DNA from: Cellulophaga sp. Hel_I_12
GTDB taxonomy: Bacteria > Bacteroidota > Bacteroidia > Flavobacteriales > Flavobacteriaceae
Direction of reading: 5' to 3'
DNA: 64,000 nt
Assembly (NCBI RefSeq): GCF_000799565.1
Contig: NZ_JUHB01000001.1
Coordinates: forward strand, 3,227,501 to 3,291,500
Made by a program: the position numbers and the translations under genes. A model generated the notes under the pieces. The model did not search any database. It was not told the origin of the DNA and saw nothing but the letters and a program-made list of their open reading frames with translations. Below are positions 54,338-62,651 of this stretch, piece by piece. Each line of letters opens with the position of its first letter. The stretch's first letter is position 1.

Positions 54338-55996
54338 ATGAATATTATCCCTAACCAAACCTCATTAATGATAAAGAATCCTATGATGGTTCTTTTTATT
54401 CTATTCTTTTTTGCCTCATGTGTAAGTATCCCTAAATACAATGAGCAAATAGCGGGGCTTCATAGCCCAGAAGACCTAAAATCGGATGTGGACAAATCGT
54501 ACAAAAAGCTTAAAAAGTTGCATCCTAAGCTCTATCAATTTGTATCCAAAGAAAGGCTAGATTTTAAATTTGATAGCTTAAAACAAAGCATCACTGCCCC
54601 CATGAGCAGTACAGATTTTTATAAGAAATTAGCTCCAGTAGTATTCGAAATTCGTCAAGGGCACATTGGTATCAGTCCGCCTTCAAAACGATATACCAAA
54701 AATGAGCGAAAAGAATTGCGCAAAAATGAATTTGAATTCTACAATTTAGATTTTGAACAAGTGGAGGATGCTTTTTTAGTGAAAGATAATTTCGGTATCG
54801 ACAGTACCATTATAGGTGCTGAAGTTTTAAAAATACGTGAAGAACCTATTGAAGACTTGGTGCGTGAGTATAAAAAATATGTCTCTTCAGATGGCTACAA
54901 TACTACTTTTGAGGATCGTTTTGTGGCCCTGCGCTTTTCAGGTTTATATTATAAAGACAAAGGATATTTAGACAGTCTCCCCATTACCTTAAGCAAGAAC
55001 GACAGCATATTCATAAAAACATTGAGGCGAATTCCTAAAGATTCGATCAAGAATATTTTAAAAATCAGGGATTCACTCGCTGCCAAAGACTCCACGACAA
55101 TAGATAAAAAAGAAGTAAAACTTAGCAAACAGGAAAAAAAAGCAAGAAAGCAAAAATTAAAGCAGAACTATAAAAATGATTTGAAATACGGCTATATTAG
55201 GCGTAAGAGTCTGCCAAAAGAAACTAAATTTTACACACGTAATTTTGATTTTATCGGTGAAGATAGCAGCATCGCCTATATGAAAATTAGTAATTTTAAA
55301 AATGGCAATTATAAGGCGTTTTATAAGGAGGTTTTTACTAAAATTGATTCTGCTGATACCAAGAATTTAATTATCGATTTAAGAGATAATACCGGTGGTC
55401 GATTGGCTGAAATAGCTAAGTTATATACTTATTTGACAGATGATGTACATCAATTTGTTGAAAAGGGACAAACATTAACACGCTTTCCTTTTCTAAAATC
55501 GAGGTTCTCAAGTGAAAACACTTTTTTAGGAAAAACCTTGGGGGTGTTAATGACACCCATAGCAGCACCTATTGAATTACTCAAGGGAAGTAAAAAAAAT
55601 GGAATACGATATTATAGATTTCCTAGTTCTAAAAGGAATCTTGACCCTGACCCCTTAAATTATAAAGGAAAACTTTATGTTTTAATTAATGGAAATTCTT
55701 TTTCGGCGTCTTCTATTTTATCGACAAAATTACAAGCTACAAAACGCGCAATATTTGTGGGTGAAGAAACGGGAGGGCATTACAATGGCACTGTTGCAGG
55801 CATGTCTAAATTTGTAGCATTGCCAAATTCTAAAGTAAGTTTATCTTTTGGAATGTTGCAAATTCAAGCGCCACACCAAACTGAAATAAATGGGTATGGT
55901 ATTATTCCGGATATAGAAATAATTCCCACTAAAAAGGAGCGAATCGACAATATTGACCCTGAATTAAATTGGATTTTGCAGGACATAAAGAAGTAA
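54338..55996 (+). CDS. S41 family peptidase, probable lipoprotein
   Basis: A 552-aa protein. The segment FILFFFASC gives a lipobox with Cys28, so it is probably a lipoprotein. The S41 protease core is in the C-terminal half: MKISNFKNG, DLRDNTGGRLAEIA, and the nucleophile Ser in INGNSFSASSILSTK, then VGEETGGHYNG. The middle (about 210-275) is lysine-rich and unusual for the family. The start used is the first ATG; the ATG at 54368 would give a shorter, more ordinary lipoprotein signal. Substrate unknown. It stands alone between SanA and the light-stress operon. Confidence 0.82.
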   Translation: MNIIPNQTSLMIKNPMMVLFILFFFASCVSIPKYNEQIAGLHSPEDLKSDVDKSYKKLKKLHPKLYQFVSKERLDFKFDSLKQSITAPMSSTDFYKKLAPVVFEIRQGHIGISPPSKRYTKNERKELRKNEFEFYNLDFEQVEDAFLVKDNFGIDSTIIGAEVLKIREEPIEDLVREYKKYVSSDGYNTTFEDRFVALRFSGLYYKDKGYLDSLPITLSKNDSIFIKTLRRIPKDSIKNILKIRDSLAAKDSTTIDKKEVKLSKQEKKARKQKLKQNYKNDLKYGYIRRKSLPKETKFYTRNFDFIGEDSSIAYMKISNFKNGNYKAFYKEVFTKIDSADTKNLIIDLRDNTGGRLAEIAKLYTYLTDDVHQFVEKGQTLTRFPFLKSRFSSENTFLGKTLGVLMTPIAAPIELLKGSKKNGIRYYRFPSSKRNLDPDPLNYKGKLYVLINGNSFSASSILSTKLQATKRAIFVGEETGGHYNGTVAGMSKFVALPNSKVSLSFGMLQIQAPHQTEINGYGIIPDIEIIPTKKERIDNIDPELNWILQDIKK

Positions 55997-56103
55997 GGAC
56001 GTATTACTAGGGAATCATTAGAGTAAGACTTGCAGTAGCCTCTAAGTTTTCACCTTTAAGTCGATGAAAATCGTACACATCACTTGGCAACTCTTAAAAC
56101 ATT

Positions 56104-56157
56104 GTTATAATGTTTAACTTTTCGTAATATTTGTTAAACATTTTGTATTTTCGTAAT
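56104..56157 (+). promoter_or_regulatory. Two-part upstream element of the photoprotection operon
   Basis: GTTATAATGTTTAA (56104-56117) and TAAACATTTTGTATT (56135-56149) occur here and again at 61078-61123 with the same 31-base start-to-start spacing. Here AATGTTTAAC (56109-56118) and GTTAAACATT (56133-56142) also form a perfect inverted repeat, and TTTTCGTAAT occurs twice (56119-56128, 56148-56157). The operon start is 36 bases further. Confidence 0.6.
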
Positions 56158-56192
56158 GAAATTATGAATTTCTTATTTACAAAATAGAAGCT

Positions 56193-56363
56193 ATGTTTGG
56201 ATTATTTAAAAAAAAATCAGAGAAAGAAGTACTGCAAAAACAATATAAGGACTTATTGAATGAAGCCTATAAACTGTCTACCGTAAATCGCAAGGCAAGC
56301 GATGATAAAACCTATGAAGCAGAGCAAGTCATGAAAAAAATTGATGCCCTCAACGAAGATTAA
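56193..56363 (+). CDS. Lacal_2735 family small protein
   Basis: A 56-aa protein starting MFGLFKKKSEKE and continuing as a helical, charged sequence with AYKLSTVNRKASDDKTYEAE. I recognise it as a Lacal_2735-type flavobacterial small protein; its function is unknown. The ATG at 56193 follows the two-part promoter element by 36 bases. Ten bases separate it from the glutathione peroxidase gene, so it opens the eight-gene operon. Confidence 0.82.
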   Translation: MFGLFKKKSEKEVLQKQYKDLLNEAYKLSTVNRKASDDKTYEAEQVMKKIDALNED

Positions 56364-56373
56364 AAAATAGCGA

Positions 56374-56907
56374 ATGAATTTTTTGGAAAATTTAAAATTT
56401 ACGACATCAAAAGGTAAAGATACAATAGCACCTAAAGAATCTATCTATACCATTAGCATAAACGATATACACGGTACACCGCTAGTATTAGAAAAATTTA
56501 AAGGAAAGTACATTTTATTTGTAAACGTGGCATCAGAATGTGGTTTTACAAGCCAGTATTCTGACCTTCAAAAGTTGTATAAAGCTTACCAAGAGAAGTT
56601 AGTTATAATTGGTGCTCCATGCAATCAGTTTGGAGGGCAAGAGCCTGGAGATGAAAACCAAATCACATCGTTTTGCGAGCTTAATTTTGGGGTCAGTTTT
56701 CCCTTAACCGAAAAGTTGGCTGTAAAAGGCCCAAGTCAACATCCTTTATACCAATGGCTTACCGATAAAAATAAAAATGGAAAAAAGAGTAGTACGGTAA
56801 AGTGGAACTTTCAGAAATATCTTGTGGATGATACAGGGCATCTAGTGGATGTATTTTATTCGATTACAAAACCATTAAGTACTAAAATAACCAAATACTT
56901 CAAATAA
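56374..56907 (+). CDS. Glutathione peroxidase family protein
   Basis: A 177-aa thiol peroxidase of the glutathione peroxidase family. The peroxidatic Cys56 is in NVASECGFTSQY, and the Gln and Trp of the catalytic tetrad are in NQFGGQEPG and KWNFQKYLV. It is the cysteine form, not selenocysteine. There is no signal peptide, so it acts in the cytoplasm, probably with thioredoxin. It is in the operon with photolyases, fitting a role against light-induced peroxides. Confidence 0.93.
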   Translation: MNFLENLKFTTSKGKDTIAPKESIYTISINDIHGTPLVLEKFKGKYILFVNVASECGFTSQYSDLQKLYKAYQEKLVIIGAPCNQFGGQEPGDENQITSFCELNFGVSFPLTEKLAVKGPSQHPLYQWLTDKNKNGKKSSTVKWNFQKYLVDDTGHLVDVFYSITKPLSTKITKYFK

Positions 56908-56924
56908 GAAATTTATTTAAAATA

Positions 56925-57344
56925 ATGGCTTCAGTTAAAAAACCAGACTATGTAGTTTTTGATGCAGATAAAGAAAAATATGATGCAGCCTTAAAACCCT
57001 ATGCCACAAGTGTAGGAGCTCCGGTGATTACTACGCAAGATACCGTTTCTTGGAAAAATCGAAATATTCACCAAGTAAATAAACAAATTGGTGCAAAGTA
57101 CCAGGAGCTAAAAGCGGAGTTCGATGGCTTAATGGAGCAGTTTGAGTACAATAACTTGGTGTACAGTGCTTCATTTAATTTTGAGCCTATTGTTGGTTTT
57201 ACCTATTATTTATACAGAAATGCTGCGGAAGAAGCCTTCTTATCCGTAATTGCGCCTGATGAATGTAACTTTGATTATATAGGTACTTTTAAATTAAATG
57301 CGGATAAAATTTGGCAAAAAATTAAACATACAGACGAAAAATAA
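56925..57344 (+). CDS. DUF2452 protein
   Basis: A 139-aa protein that I place in DUF2452 by KKPDYVVFDADKEKYDAALKPY and SVGAPVITTQDTVSWKNR. It has no signal peptide. Function is unknown; it lies in the operon 17 bases after the peroxidase gene and two bases before TIGR03643. Confidence 0.83.
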   Translation: MASVKKPDYVVFDADKEKYDAALKPYATSVGAPVITTQDTVSWKNRNIHQVNKQIGAKYQELKAEFDGLMEQFEYNNLVYSASFNFEPIVGFTYYLYRNAAEEAFLSVIAPDECNFDYIGTFKLNADKIWQKIKHTDEK

Positions 57345-57346
57345 GC

Positions 57347-57628
57347 ATGGATAATAATTTTACAGAACGACAAGCGGATAGAATTATAGAAATGGCTTGG
57401 GAAGATAGAACCCCTTTTGAAGCCATCGAATTTCAATTTGGATTGCCCGAAAAGGAAGTTATTAAGTTTATGCGTGCTAACTTAAAAGAATCAAGTTTTA
57501 AACGCTGGCGTAAAAGAGTAAACAGTGGTGTAAGTCAAAAACATCTAAAAAAGCGTAATCCGGAAATAAGCAGGTTTAAATGTTCAAGACAAAAAGCGAT
57601 TTCAGGAAATAAAATTAGCAAGCGTTAA
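57347..57628 (+). CDS. TIGR03643 family protein
   Basis: A 93-aa basic protein with ERQADRIIEMAWEDRTPFEAI and LPEKEVIKFMR, typical of TIGR03643, which is commonly found beside photolyase/cryptochrome genes. It shares its final base with the ATG of the next gene (57628). The lysine/arginine-rich C-terminus suggests a nucleic acid contact, but no function is proven. Confidence 0.85.
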   Translation: MDNNFTERQADRIIEMAWEDRTPFEAIEFQFGLPEKEVIKFMRANLKESSFKRWRKRVNSGVSQKHLKKRNPEISRFKCSRQKAISGNKISKR

Positions 57629-58734
57629 TGGCAAAGCACATTCCAAACTTTCCTACAGACTATGACGCAATTTTACAGCGAATAGCTAATGTAAGCCCCA
57701 AGGAGTACGCAAAATCTCGAAACTATATTGATGGAGCTGTTAGCTATTTATCACCTTATATTTCAAGAGGAGTTGTTTCGACAAAGCAGGTTTTTCAATT
57801 GGTGTTAGCAAAGGGCTATGCTCCAAACTCTATTGAAAAATTTATTCAAGAGTTGGCCTGGAGAGATTATTGGCAGCAAGTTTGGAGGGTAAAAAGCAAC
57901 GAAATAAACACCGATTTAAAACATGAGCAACAATCGGTTATCAATCACGAAATGCCTTCAGCTATTCTTGAAGCGACTACCGAAATTGAAGCTATAGACG
58001 AAGCTATTGCCGCATTTTATGAAACTGGATACCTGCATAACCATGTACGCATGTACTTGGCCTCCATCAGTTGTAATGTGGCCCAGAGTCATTGGAAACA
58101 TCCTGCACAATGGATGTATTACCATTTATTAGATGGCGATTGGGCAAGCAATGCGCTTAGTTGGCAATGGGTGGTTGGGGCAAACAGCAATAAAAAGTAC
58201 TATGCAAATCAGGAAAATATAAATAGGTATTGCCATACCCATCAAAACAATACCTTTTTAGATGTGGATTATGAGGCACTTCCTGAAATGGCGATTCCTA
58301 CTGTTTTAAAAGCAACCGTACAGGCCAAATTAGTGACTCCATTACCTCTTAAAACCCCTATACAAGTAGATCAAACGAAACCTAGTTGTATTTATAACTA
58401 CTATAATTTAGACCCCATTTGGCGAAAAGAAGAAGCTGTGAATCGCATTCTTTTGTTAGAACCATCAGTTTTTGAACAGTATCCAATAGGACAAAAAGCG
58501 GTCGATTTTATGTTGGCCTTGGCTAAAAACATACCTAATATTCAAGTATACGTTGGTGAGTTCACTGAATTATTGAAAGAATACCAACTTTCGAAATTAT
58601 ATTACAAGGAACACCCTTTAAATACAAAGTATACAGGAACAGAAGACACTAGAGATTGGATGTTTGGTGTGAAAGGGTATTATCCTTCATTTTTTGCTTT
58701 TTGGAAGAAATGTAAAAAGGAATTACGATTTTAA
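57628..58734 (+). CDS. Photolyase-like FAD-binding protein with apparently permuted domain order
   Basis: A 368-aa protein. Residues about 1-230 match the helical FAD-binding half of photolyases, with the N-terminal SYLSPYISRGVVS, WRDYWQQVWR and the WASNALSWQWVVGANSNKKYYAN segment. The usual N-terminal antenna-binding alpha/beta half is absent in front of it. After a linker, residues about 265-330 read RILLLEPSVFEQYPIGQKA and VYVGEFTELLKEY, which resemble the antenna domain start of the photolyase encoded at 59516 ([19 protein letters not shown]). The domain order is thus likely reversed. Overlap by one base with the gene before suggests coupling. Confidence 0.8.
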   Translation: MAKHIPNFPTDYDAILQRIANVSPKEYAKSRNYIDGAVSYLSPYISRGVVSTKQVFQLVLAKGYAPNSIEKFIQELAWRDYWQQVWRVKSNEINTDLKHEQQSVINHEMPSAILEATTEIEAIDEAIAAFYETGYLHNHVRMYLASISCNVAQSHWKHPAQWMYYHLLDGDWASNALSWQWVVGANSNKKYYANQENINRYCHTHQNNTFLDVDYEALPEMAIPTVLKATVQAKLVTPLPLKTPIQVDQTKPSCIYNYYNLDPIWRKEEAVNRILLLEPSVFEQYPIGQKAVDFMLALAKNIPNIQVYVGEFTELLKEYQLSKLYYKEHPLNTKYTGTEDTRDWMFGVKGYYPSFFAFWKKCKKELRF

Positions 58735-58744
58735 AAGAAAGCTT

Positions 58745-59377
58745 ATGCATTACACAAAGCAAGAAATAGAACAATTAGATCGTGTGCAACGCATCAAGTT
58801 TATCAATGCGGTTTCAGGAGTAAAAGCAGCTAATTTAATTGGAACAATTTCTGAAAAGGGAATCACAAATGTTGCTATTTTCAATTCGGTGATGCATTTG
58901 GGTAGCGATCCTGCATTAATGGGTTTTATTTTACGTCCGGTGGGTGATGTGCCGCGCCATACCTACGAAAATATGCTAAAAAATGGTAGCTACACGATTA
59001 ATCATGTCAACACTTCCATCATAAAAAAAGCACATTATACCTCTGCTAAATTTGATGATGGCGAATCGGAGTTTCGGCATTGTGCACTTACGGAAGAGTT
59101 TGTGGATGGGATAGTAGCTCCCTTCGTAAAAGAAAGTCACTTAAAAATAGGTTTAAAATATATCGAATCGATTCCCATAGAACGTAATGGCACCATCTTG
59201 GTTATCGGTGAAATAGAACATTTAATAATCCCTCAAAATGCCATTAGAGAGGCCGACGATATTGATTTATCGGAAATCAATTCTGTGGGAATCTCGGGTT
59301 TAAATACCTATTATGACCTAAAGAAGCTGGAGCGATTCCCTTATGTGAGAAGAAATGAAGTTCCAGATTTCAAGTAA
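58745..59377 (+). CDS. Flavin reductase family protein
   Basis: A 210-aa flavoprotein of the flavin reductase / DIM6-NTAB family, with a split-barrel FMN-binding core: [21 protein letters not shown] and [11 protein letters not shown] in the centre. The ATG at 58745 is chosen because the longer frame would start inside the photolyase-like gene. It could supply reduced flavin to the photolyases or act on other substrates; the operon position favours the first. Ten bases after the previous stop. Confidence 0.86.
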
Positions 59378-59382
59378 AAAAA

Positions 59383-59529
59383 ATGAAAAAACAATACCTA
59401 CCAGAAAAAATATGCGTGGTTTGCGACCGACCCTTTTCATGGCGAAAAAAATGGGAGAAAAACTGGGATGAGGTAAAGTACTGTAGCGATAAATGTAGAA
59501 TGCATAAAAAGACCCATGTCAAAAACTAA
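59383..59529 (+). CDS. DUF2256 zinc ribbon protein
   Basis: A 48-aa protein that begins [20 protein letters not shown] and has a second cysteine pair YCSDKC, so it forms a CxxC...CxxxC zinc ribbon. DUF2256 is a frequent neighbour or fusion partner of cryptochrome genes. It starts five bases after the flavin reductase stop and overlaps the photolyase gene by 14 bases. Confidence 0.85.
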
Positions 59530-61009
59530 GCATAAAAAAGTTCATCTTATATTTCCCCATCAACTGTTTAAAGAAAATCCACTTTTTAAACACCAATATC
59601 CTATTTATTTAGTGGAAGAGTTTCTTTTTTTTAAGCAATATCCCTTTCACAAACAAAAAATAGCGTTCCATAGAGCTACTATGAAATTCTACGAAGCTTA
59701 TTTAAAAGAGAATGGCTTTGAGGTGCATTATATAGCGGCACAAGATAAAATTGCAGATATTCGTGAATTAATACCCTATTTAAAAAATGATGGAGTTCAA
59801 GAAATAAATTATATCAATCCGGTTGATAATTGGTTAGAAAAACGCCTAGCCACTAGCGCCTCATCCCTAGGTATAAAACAAAATAGTTTTGAATCGCCTT
59901 TGTTCTTAAGTTCAAATGATGCTTTAAAAGATTTTTTTAAGCCTGATAAAAAAAAGTTTCACCAAACTACTTTTTACACCAATGAACGTAAAAAGCGTAA
60001 TATTCTAATCGTTGGAGATGAGCAGCCAGAAGGCGGTAAATGGACTTACGATACCGAAAACCGAAAAAAATATCCAACTAAAAAGCAAGCCCCTAATATT
60101 CAATTTCCCGATACGGACGATTTTTATAAAGAAGCTAAAACCTACGTGGAAACTAATTTTTCTAAGAATTACGGAGAACTTTCAGACAGCTTTCGCTACC
60201 CAAATACCTTTGCAAAAACTGAAAAATGGTTTGCTGATTTTTTAAGCCAACGATTTTTAGAGTTCGGAACCTTTGAAGATGCCATTGTGAAGCACAATTC
60301 AATTTTGCATCACAGTGTAGTAAGCCCAATGTTAAATATAGGCTTAATTACACCAGAAGAAATAATTGATAAGGCAGTATTATTTGCAACAGAAAATGAT
60401 ATTCCCATAAATTCTACCGAAGGCTTCGTACGGCAAATTGTAGGATGGAGAGAGTTTATACGTGGAATTTATGTAAGTAAAGGAAGTTATGAACGCACCA
60501 AGAATTTCTGGGGTTTTAAACGCAAAATACCAAAGTCATTTTACGAGGGAACAACAGGTATTGAACCCTTAGACGATACTATTAAAAGTGTTCTTAAAAC
60601 CGGCTATTGCCATCATATAGAACGCTTAATGATAGTAGGTAACTTTATGCTGTTGTGTGAATTTGATCCCGATGAAGTGTACCAATGGTTTATGGAGCTC
60701 TTTATCGATGCCTATGATTGGGTTATGGTACCTAATGTATATGGTATGAGTCAATTTTCAGATGGGGGTCTAATGGCAACCAAACCCTATATTAGCGGAA
60801 GTAATTATCTAATGAAAATGAGTAATTATCAAAAAGGAGCGTGGCAAGAAACTTGGGATGGACTTTTTTGGCGTTTTATGCACGTGCATCGAGAATTTTT
60901 CCTTTCAAATCCGCGATTAAGCATGTTGGTTAGGATGTATGACAAAATGCCTGAGGATAAGAAGAATAGTCACCAACAAAATGCAAATTTGTTTTTAAAT
61001 CAGCTGTGA
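59516..61009 (+). CDS. FeS-BCP (PhrB/CryB-like) photolyase without the iron-sulphur cysteines
   Basis: A 497-aa protein of the bacterial (6-4) photolyase/cryptochrome FeS-BCP type. The N-terminal alpha/beta domain has [19 protein letters not shown], and the C-terminal catalytic domain has [26 protein letters not shown] and [22 protein letters not shown]. The motif YCxxC that binds the [4Fe-4S] cluster in Agrobacterium PhrB reads Y438-Q439-K440-G441-A442 here, and only two cysteines occur in the whole protein, so a cluster cannot form. It probably repairs (6-4) photoproducts by light; activity is inferred. Its start overlaps DUF2256 by 14 bases. Confidence 0.9.
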
Positions 61010-61356
61010 TTTTACCTTTTGGTGATTACGATAACCTATAAAATTAGGAATATTAAAACCTATTTGGTTAAAATAGTGTTATAATGTTTAAACATTGCTT
61101 AAAATAAATAAACATTTTGTATTATTGTTAATAAAATTTAATGCTTAGTTGTCATTTTATTTGGTAAACAATGCTAGCTAAAATATGTTTGCTAACTGCT
61201 ATAGTATAAAAGCGCTAGAATAGTTAGGTTATCGTATTTTTAAATTATTTGTTTTGATTTAAATCATTCTAAATAATAGGGAAAACGGTACCAAATAGAG
61301 CCTAAAACATAGCATTAAATCAATAATAATAAATTAACTATAAACGATTTAGATTT
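61010..61356. other. Long AT-rich gap with a second copy of the operon element
   Basis: This 347-base stretch holds no open frame of note. Its main structure is the two-part element at 61078-61123 (identical 14- and 15-base words to the one before 56193) and the palindrome AATGTTTAAACATT at 61083-61096. From the element to the ATG at 61357 is 233 bases, a long leader if transcription starts there. Confidence 0.5.
61078..61123 (+). promoter_or_regulatory. Two-part upstream element, second copy
   Basis: GTTATAATGTTTAA at 61078-61091 and TAAACATTTTGTATT at 61109-61123, spaced exactly as in the copy at 56104-56149. The palindrome AATGTTTAAACATT covers 61083-61096. It lies upstream of the small gene at 61357. 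Confidence 0.6.
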
Positions 61357-61578
61357 ATGGATGCAATGGATAGAGCCTTAGAGTTCGAAAGCCGTAAAAT
61401 GTCCGGTATGACCACAAGTGATAGAGTAGAATCATCTAGAGAGGTAAAGGCATTAATATTAGAGCTTAATGAAATATATAAGAAAGATAAAAACGAAGAG
61501 ATTATGGATGTCATGAAAAGACTTACCGTGATAAAACGTAAAATTGAAAAACGTTTGTTGGGAAGACCAACAGCTTAA
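61357..61578 (+). CDS. Small conserved-looking protein of unknown function
   Basis: A 73-aa, highly charged, helical protein starting MDAMDRALEFESRKMSGM with the conserved-looking ESSREVKALILELNEIYKK. I do not recognise a family. It is preceded, at a distance, by the same two-part element as the light-stress operon and so may share its control. A terminator follows closely. The absence of a signal peptide and its size suggest a small regulator or chaperone, but no function can be given. Confidence 0.62.
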   Translation: MDAMDRALEFESRKMSGMTTSDRVESSREVKALILELNEIYKKDKNEEIMDVMKRLTVIKRKIEKRLLGRPTA

Positions 61579-61601
61579 GCTATAATTTTTTACTCAGAAG
61601 C

Positions 61602-61638
61602 AAAGCGCAAAAAAAATTAATTTTTTTTGCGCTTTTTT
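61602..61638. terminator. Bidirectional terminator with a 34-bp perfect palindrome
   Basis: AAAGCGC followed by eight A and TT, then its complement, form a perfect palindrome at 61602-61635, with a GCGC core on each side and a T-run to 61638. It lies between the converging genes at 61357 and 61671 and could end both transcripts. Confidence 0.83.
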
Positions 61639-61670
61639 ATACTTTTTAAGCAGAAGACTTGGAGTAGGTC

Positions 61671-62651
61671 TTAGGGTAGTTCTGTTTCGTTTTTAGTGAT
61701 ATGTATAATGGCATCTCCTTGATTTACGATAGGCGATTGGTTTACACAAATCACATGACCAGAGAAGTTTGATTTTTGTATTTTATCAAAATTTCCGAAG
61801 GGATCCGACACACTTCCTAAGCTATCACCGACCTTTACATATTGCCCAAGTTGAACCGTAGGATGGAAAAGTCCAGAAAATTTGGCTCTTATCCATGTGG
61901 AATCTTCTACAAGAAACAAGGTGTCGGGTTTAGGAATTAATGAAGAGAGCTCTTTTTGAAAACTCCTAATCCCTAATTCTTGCATGACCCTTAGTGCACC
62001 GGATATACCGGTTCTGGTGATGACAGGATTAATATTTAACGATTTACCTCCCTCAAATAGCAATACTTTTTTGTCTAGCTTATAAAGGGTCTCTCTAAAA
62101 GATTTTTCTCTTTTAGCACTCTTAATAATAAAGCTAGTCCCAAAGGTTTTAGCTAATTGAAGACTTTCATGATCGTTTTTTCCAATTCGTATTTGAGGGC
62201 TATTAAAGCGGCTATCGCCTCCCGTATGAAAATCGATACAATAGCTTATGTGAGGTACAATCTCTTTCACAATATGATAGGCAAATCTGCTGGCTAATGA
62301 TCCTGTACGCGTACCCGGAAAAACACGATTTAAGTCTCTTCCATCGGGGAATTCTCTAGTTTGACTTAAAAATCCGAAAACATTTACAACAGGAATACAT
62401 ATAACCATTCCTGCATTTGGAATATGGTATTTTTTAGCAATTATTTTCCGAACAATCTCAACACCATTTACCTCGTTGCCATGAATGCCTCCCGTAAATA
62501 AAATTGAAGGCCCTTTTAGTTTGGCTCTAGATATAATAATAGGAACTTCAATGCTGGTACCGGTATGTAATTTCGCAATATTTAAAGAAAGCTGATAGGT
62601 TTTACCAGGTAAAATAGTTTCTCCTAGTATTTTAACTTTATTACTCGGCAT
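61671..62651 (-). CDS. Succinylglutamate desuccinylase/aspartoacylase family zinc hydrolase
   Basis: A 326-aa zinc carboxypeptidase-like protein. Zinc ligands are H57 and E60 in [10 protein letters not shown] and H142 in CIDFHTGG; substrate-contact Arg residues lie in [12 protein letters not shown] (105 and 109). The C-terminal part (about 250-326) looks like a barrel-sandwich (biotinyl-lipoyl-like) domain with [13 protein letters not shown]. The ATG at 62651 is used rather than the TTG at 62660. It overlaps the rimK stop by 11 bases. Pairing with RimK suggests it acts on peptides or amino-acid tails added by RimK; this is inference. Confidence 0.88.

Follow-up and report, generated by a model that had tools for sequence, protein, structure and literature searches.

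CarH proteins, the class I LitR regulators of Thermus thermophilus, Bacillus megaterium and Myxococcus xanthus, are adenosylcobalamin (AdoCbl)-dependent repressors of carotenoid genes that are released by light. The class II LitR proteins of Pseudomonas (PplR1-3 of P. putida and PmlR2 of P. mendocina) are also repressors and take their signal from a short LOV protein, according to the portion of PMC9758184 available to us. Regulons under light-released CarH/LitR control are therefore already known. Here, we analyzed a window of 64,000 nucleotides from Cellulophaga sp. Hel_I_12 (G000:C1:3227501-3291500, G000 being the 4.03-Mb genome of this strain) and describe a DNA element, present in two copies, which comparative sequence analysis indicates is very probably the operator of an autoregulated, light-relieved MerR repressor of the CarH/LitR type, encoded elsewhere on the chromosome and with a new operator layout.

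A preliminary description of the window had reported two words, GTTATAATGTTTAA (at 56104 and 61078) and TAAACATTTTGTATT (at 56135 and 61109), as base-identical in both copies, spaced by 31 nt from start to start and separated by 17 bases that differ. All of this holds, and both words are parts of a single element, the 32-bp inverted repeat TTGTTTAA-N16-TTAAACAA, whose short form TGTTTA-N18-TAAACA lies within them. A putative Bacteroidota-type -7 promoter box begins 4 nt past the repeat, word 2 being the right half-site together with the beginning of that box. At up to 3 mismatches, the two-word pattern matches twice in the window, against 0 matches expected from 100 dinucleotide shuffles, and word 2 is found at just two places in the genome, both of them in the window (reversed control, 0). 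The full 14- and 15-base words were rejected as a motif because they over-fit: GTTATA and TTTTGTATT only flank the conserved core, which is the inverted repeat. A scoring matrix built from 47 sites, all from relatives and with the Cellulophaga genome itself excluded, ranks the sites at 56110, 61084 and 61064 first, second and third over the 64 kb, the next-best site scoring 1.2 bits. The features of the two copies are as follows.

56104..56149, plus strand: two-word span of copy 1, with word 1 at 56104-56117 and word 2 at 56135-56149.
56110..56141, plus strand: candidate operator box, copy 1, ATGTTTAA-N16-TTAAACAT, 26.7 bits with the relatives-only matrix.
56111-56116 and 56135-56140, plus strand: half-sites TGTTTA and TAAACA of copy 1.
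56146..56153, plus strand: putative -7 element TATTTTCG, 36 nt after the box start, an imperfect TAnnTTTG.
61064..61095, plus strand: weaker box overlapping copy 2, TTGGTTAA-N16-TTTAAACA..., 11.3 bits.
61078..61123, plus strand: two-word span of copy 2, from the word positions.
61084..61115, plus strand: candidate operator box, copy 2, ATGTTTAA-N16-ATAAACAT, 18.2 bits.
61120..61127, plus strand: putative -7 element TATTATTG, 36 nt after the box start, imperfect.

The copy 2 region (61064-61115) holds three consecutive half-sites, the middle one of which, ATGTTTAAACAT, is a perfect palindrome common to the two overlapping boxes.

The box is conserved upstream of homologous genes in relatives, a comparison that the preliminary description had proposed. 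Twelve of the 30 genomes searched, that of Cellulophaga included, encode the DPRP photolyase, and in each of the 11 other genera the photolyase operon is preceded by a box with 0-2 mismatches and a spacing of 16. Across 80 named photolyase loci, 13, 26 and 12 sites with this spacing have 0, 1 and 2 mismatches, and only the 16-bp spacing is enriched (39 sites at 0-1 mismatch; among the other spacings, 8 to 24, the count never exceeds 2). The box stands upstream of the photolyase gene in 29 of these 80 loci, by title all Flavobacteriales except one titled only Bacteroidia. It also precedes the rhodopsin gene in all six readable loci (own genome included; one of the seven matches, the fragment L092, was left out), a spacing of 16 always being best. 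In relatives, boxes sometimes form pairs whose starts are 42-44 bp apart, which would suit two regulator units bound side by side (G034:C1:29499/29542, G044:C3:283201/283243, G017:C3:325307/325350, G107:C9:133799/133841 and G115:C33:549525/549569). Four of the five close photolyase homologues were aligned (alignment A1); the fifth, the homologue of G026 (L076), is 66% identical, carries one in-frame TAA and was left out.

In the Cellulophaga genome, TTGTTTAA-N16-TTAAACAA at up to 1 mismatch gives 10 sites versus 0 in the reversed control; eight lie upstream of genes, and the two within genes are probably chance matches. Boxed are the rhodopsin gene (PF01036), from which the beta-carotene dioxygenase gene (PF15461) diverges; a TetR gene, behind which lies an ABC1-like gene recognized by eye; a second photolyase operon, in which a weak Polyketide_cyc match below cut-off and a short-chain dehydrogenase/reductase (SDR) accompany a photolyase-like protein of 436 aa (by eye); and, at 634593, the gene of a fasciclin-domain protein. 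At 533876, the box precedes a cluster of fasciclin-like genes, in which the neighbor was confirmed with Pfam and the boxed gene itself was assigned by eye. The remaining boxed genes encode a CHRD protein, a Porph_ging protein and, judged by eye, a protein of the outer-membrane type. At 2-3 mismatches, the list takes in both window copies and the start of the MerR gene described below, amid many chance sites, and TGTTTA-N18-TAAACA at 1 mismatch shows only a mild excess (59 versus 43 in the control). Fasciclin-type lipoprotein genes are repeatedly boxed (G000:C1 532671-533972, loci L016, L017 and L030; 634593, locus L025), with four box-like sites of 1-3 mismatches within 1.3 kb of the fasciclin gene cluster. 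Three identical box-like matches (G000:C1:37538, 40798 and 55584) are apparently copies of one repeated sequence.

The regulator had been placed outside the window, and correctly so: two MerR_1 genes were found in the Cellulophaga genome, neither of them in the window. One of the two, about 297 kb beyond the right end of the window, is the candidate:

G000:C1:3588543-3589442, minus strand: candidate MerR regulator, 300 aa, first gene of the crt operon.

This operon reads merR-crtI-crtB-crtZ-crtI-lycopene cyclase, the crt names having been assigned by eye from the translations. In 27 of 29 loci, the box TTGTTTAA-N16-ATGAACAA covers the merR start at exactly -24, with the start codon contained in the right half-site (a thirtieth locus, L049, whose start was missed by the search pattern, was left out). 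The second codon of merR is AAC in 28 of the 29 loci, compared with 245 AAC among 654 Asn codons elsewhere in these genes; L056, the one locus that departs from this, has its right half-site upstream of the ATG. Some further genomes have an apparent merR start at TTG, or at an ATG one codon earlier, with the register of the box unchanged; others have the box 39-76 nt upstream of merR and a start region free of it. Among 18 loci read out of the 29 from L223 to L251 (11 left out), the best box is found between -18 and -24 relative to the presumed start in 11, two of these at 3 mismatches, lies further upstream in six (L235 with 4 mismatches, L237 with 3) and is missing in L236. The second-codon bias and the kept register of the box therefore indicate that the constraint acts on the DNA, and the sequence around the start points to merR autoregulation. 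In relatives, a second box occurs behind the end of merR (for example G034:C3:224352, G143:C1:738584 and G044:C5:21140); in several of them TATATTTG abuts its right half-site, and it probably serves the next gene.

Box number follows the MerR gene, not the TetR gene. The 111 genomes with a MerR orthologue carry 5.32 boxes per genome versus 0.77 in the reversed control, whereas the 29 genomes without MerR carry 1.10 versus 0.90, and the 16 MerR-less genomes that are at least 90% complete 0.75 versus 0.88, MerR absence having been deduced by subtraction for 9 unlisted genomes. Nine genomes with only a distant MerR homologue are at 1.67 versus 0.56. In other families of the order, 14 genomes with a MerR match at E<=1e-50 average 1.93 versus 0.43, and 46 MerR-less genomes 0.41 versus 0.35. 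Together, box conservation and co-occurrence with MerR give good support to the earlier suggestion of shared control by a bound regulator, and physical binding of the MerR protein to the box can be inferred from these sequence patterns.

The MerR protein matches the Thermus CarH sequence (phmmer E 4.7e-11) and PF13411 (48.5 bits, cut-off 21.6), and scores 65.5 bits against the NCBIfam CarH model, whose cut-off is 400. Its predicted fold is CarH-like, with a MerR DNA-binding domain, a four-helix bundle and a Rossmann-type cobalamin-binding fold. We aligned 59 of the 120 MerR homologues listed (8000 scored; alignment A2). All 59 share the recognition helix RxWE[RK]RY, the strict RxWERRY occurring in none, and Wx9EH is kept in 58 and ExHxxG in 59.

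On this basis, the box would act as a light-relieved operator. The half-site TAAACA fits the TnnACA recognized by CarH proteins, the two halves facing each other across 18 bp. The -7 box of Bacteroidota has the consensus TAnnTTTG. Among 62 sites of relatives, 21 have TAnnTTT[GAC] at an offset of 36 nt from the box start (strict TAnnTTTG in 9), and 12 have a strict TAnnTTTG at -5, overlapping the left half-site, a placement in which the box itself supplies part of the match; in merR promoters, too, a -7-like element overlaps the left half-site. A classic MerR activator needs one fixed place in the promoter spacer. Because the box occupies more than one position, each covering the promoter, a blocking repressor fits better, and we infer repression rather than activation. 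In the dark, the regulator would be bound to the box, which covers the -7 element or lies 4 nt ahead of it, and would block RNA polymerase; in the light, its release would co-induce the photolyases, peroxidase, flavin enzymes, a 73-aa gene, rhodopsin, carotenoid synthesis and the regulator itself. Light, proposed from the outset as a possible signal, is indeed the likely one, since rhodopsin, the carotenoid operon and photolyases share the box, and the analogy with the Pseudomonas LitR regulon, as far as the accessible part of PMC9758184 describes it, suggests the same.

Several observations weigh against this interpretation. On the side of the protein, the full classic B12 motif D/ExHx2G/P-x41-SxT/V-x22-27-GG is found in 0 of the 59 sequences, the SxT/V position being occupied by SYF in 58 and SYL in 1; the His after Trp, the upper ligand in the light state, which is found in many but not all CarH proteins, is present in 0 of 59 (WQ in 58); and GxxH of the SignatureFinder light-response signature (GxxW, EH, GxxH, GxxxP) occurs in 0 of 59, the signature being incomplete with GxxW and EH in 58 and NExH in 59. 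On the side of the DNA, known CarH operators are tandem 11-bp direct repeats of TnnACA, whereas here the half-sites are inverted and 18 bp apart; the -7 elements of both window copies are imperfect; these two copies and the merR site carry 2-3 mismatches to the consensus; and the long pattern at 3 mismatches is not enriched in the Cellulophaga genome (218 versus 219 in the control). The box is missing upstream in 51 of the 80 photolyase loci; 13 of these have less than 3 kb of upstream sequence, and the remainder are true misses, among them five Dyadobacter and also Flavobacteriales (L104, L109, L119 and L120). Finally, no excess is seen in 18 genomes of other families of the order whose only MerR homologue is a weaker one (E 1e-20 to 1e-50; 0.22 versus 0.61), 5 of the 111 MerR genomes carry not even 2 boxes, 6 of the 29 MerR-less genomes have at least 2 (among them G116, 96% complete, with 3 boxes and 1 in the control), and MerR genomes that also encode the rival TetR carry more boxes than those that do not (5.86 versus 3.44, p = 1e-5, a value that treats related genomes as independent). 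Because the regulator fails parts of the CarH signature, the chromophore is uncertain, with cobalamin as a candidate. The accessible part of PMC8156234 states that both signature motifs define CarH, and we therefore call the protein CarH-like and not a CarH.

These gaps in the canonical B12 and bis-His residues leave some room for the MerR protein acting as an activator, or answering singlet oxygen, peroxide or another stress instead of light, which we consider unlikely. In the 21 sites mentioned above, the -7 element closely follows the box, which places the box near where MerR activators act, and the operon behind copy 1 holds a peroxidase and flavin enzymes; the at least two -7 placements relative to the box (+36 and -5) nevertheless contrast with the single fixed geometry of MerR activators, the box is common to rhodopsin and photolyase genes, and the known LitR/CarH relatives are light-released repressors in the available portions of PMC6739363 and PMC9758184.

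The genes behind the two copies bear on a further alternative, concerning the target of copy 2.

56193..61009, plus strand: eight-gene operon, predicted from gene spacing.
Genes 1-4: DUF6435 (56193), GSHPx (56374), DUF2452 (56925) and DUF2805 (57347).
Genes 5-8: photolyase FAD domain (57628), flavin reductase (58745), DUF2256 (59383) and DPRP photolyase-related protein (59516).
61357..61578, plus strand: 73-aa gene of unknown function, probable target of copy 2.
61602..61635, plus strand: terminator-like hairpin closing the copy 2 unit, a pattern match only.

The eight-gene operon of photolyases, peroxidase and flavin enzymes is present behind copy 1 as first reported; its distance from that copy, given as 36, needs correction, the first ATG (56193) lying 43 nt past word 2. 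Copy 2 begins 68 nt past the final stop codon of the operon (61009). It had been described as preceding a small gene of unknown function, and a 73-aa gene does follow, but its start is only at 61357. Copy 2 probably serves this gene, because its homologues lie in or near box-headed units and a terminator-like hairpin ends at 61635. We found 315 homologues, with no Pfam domain among the 120 matches listed; they stand beside folE-like and DUF2805-like genes (by eye) in the box-headed operons of L126, L150, L167 and L171, and the homologue in L117 directly adjoins a box. That copy 2 instead serves a small RNA within the 224-nt gap ahead of the open reading frame (61133-61356) is quite unlikely: this leader is matched in folding by 3 of 200 shuffles (z -2.18), the other 197 folding less well, whereas Rfam gave no match up to E 0.1 in 55900-61700, the homologues occur in box-headed operons or directly beside a box, and the hairpin is located after the open reading frame.

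It is very unlikely that the box is bound by a TetR-type protein with a PF17931 C-terminal domain. TetR proteins too bind inverted repeats, the TetR gene of Cellulophaga is itself boxed, and a TetR gene is the first behind the photolyase-operon box in 2 of the 11 genera (L095 and L098). Box counts enter on both sides: the surplus in genomes with both genes would be expected from TetR binding, and two incomplete TetR-containing genomes without a MerR match have 10 (G079, 81% complete) and 4 boxes (G147, 73%); yet the boxed TetR gene itself accounts for part of the surplus, the 25 genomes with MerR and without TetR retain their 3.44 boxes versus 0.68 in the control (TetR absence deduced by subtraction for 34 unlisted genomes), the sole near-complete genome with TetR and without MerR (G059) has 0 versus 4, and six genomes with TetR and only a distant MerR average 2.17. 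That 27 of 29 merR loci have the box across the start codon likewise argues for MerR. The unusual sigma factor raised in the preliminary description, reading the two words as -35/-10-like promoter parts, is extremely improbable and found no support, for despite the fixed spacing of the words and a sigma-like gene near merR in the relative L105 (by eye), the conserved core is a palindrome with equal halves and a weakly constrained middle beside an ordinary -7-like box, its distance to the start varies among genes, and no sigma gene was seen by eye with the Cellulophaga merR/crt operon.

Many flavobacteria carry rhodopsin. Our data raise the possibility, which we put forward tentatively, of a distinct flavobacterial CarH/LitR class that combines a CarH fold lacking the canonical B12-tail and bis-His residues with widely spaced inverted half-sites, and that would form one autoregulated light switch for rhodopsin phototrophy, carotenoids, photorepair and pterin genes, with a photochemistry unlike that of known CarH. 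The analysis yields a candidate protein, a base-exact operator and a list of target genes, and in such a natural CarH variant the missing residues would reveal dispensable parts of the B12 light switch. Within open-licence full text, with subscription papers outside its scope, we found no regulator that jointly switches on flavobacterial rhodopsin, carotenoid and photorepair genes, and the parts of PMC9723704 and PMC11796333 available to us do not mention this element; to that extent the flavobacterial operator, its inverted layout, the variant regulator signature and the inclusion of rhodopsin appear new, and a prior description is possible.

Three described systems are closest. Flavobacterial carotenoid genes that are induced by light are shared with Chryseobacterium lacus, whose authors, in the available part of PMC7064467, did not find car/lit operon genes, left the regulator open and described no operator. 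Compared with CarH, the protein has the same arrangement of MerR DNA-binding domain, four-helix bundle and Rossmann-type domain with Wx9EH and ExHxxG kept, its gene heads a crt operon and the half-site TAAACA conforms to TnnACA; unlike in CarH, SxT/V..GG and the His after Trp are missing, and photolyase, rhodopsin and fasciclin genes also carry the box. The class II LitR of Pseudomonas, again as far as the accessible part of PMC9758184 goes, resembles the proposed regulator in being a repressor, in its two spaced half-sites with a TnnACA core and in its regulon of light-induced photolyase, SDR, cryptochrome-like and folE genes. Its box, TGTACA-N12-TGTACA, differs from the flavobacterial consensus TTGTTTAA-N16-TTAAACAA, and according to that paper it keeps only the four-helix-bundle part, whereas the flavobacterial protein is modeled with both B12-type subdomains; unlike the class II regulon, the boxed genes here include rhodopsin and the carotenoid operon.

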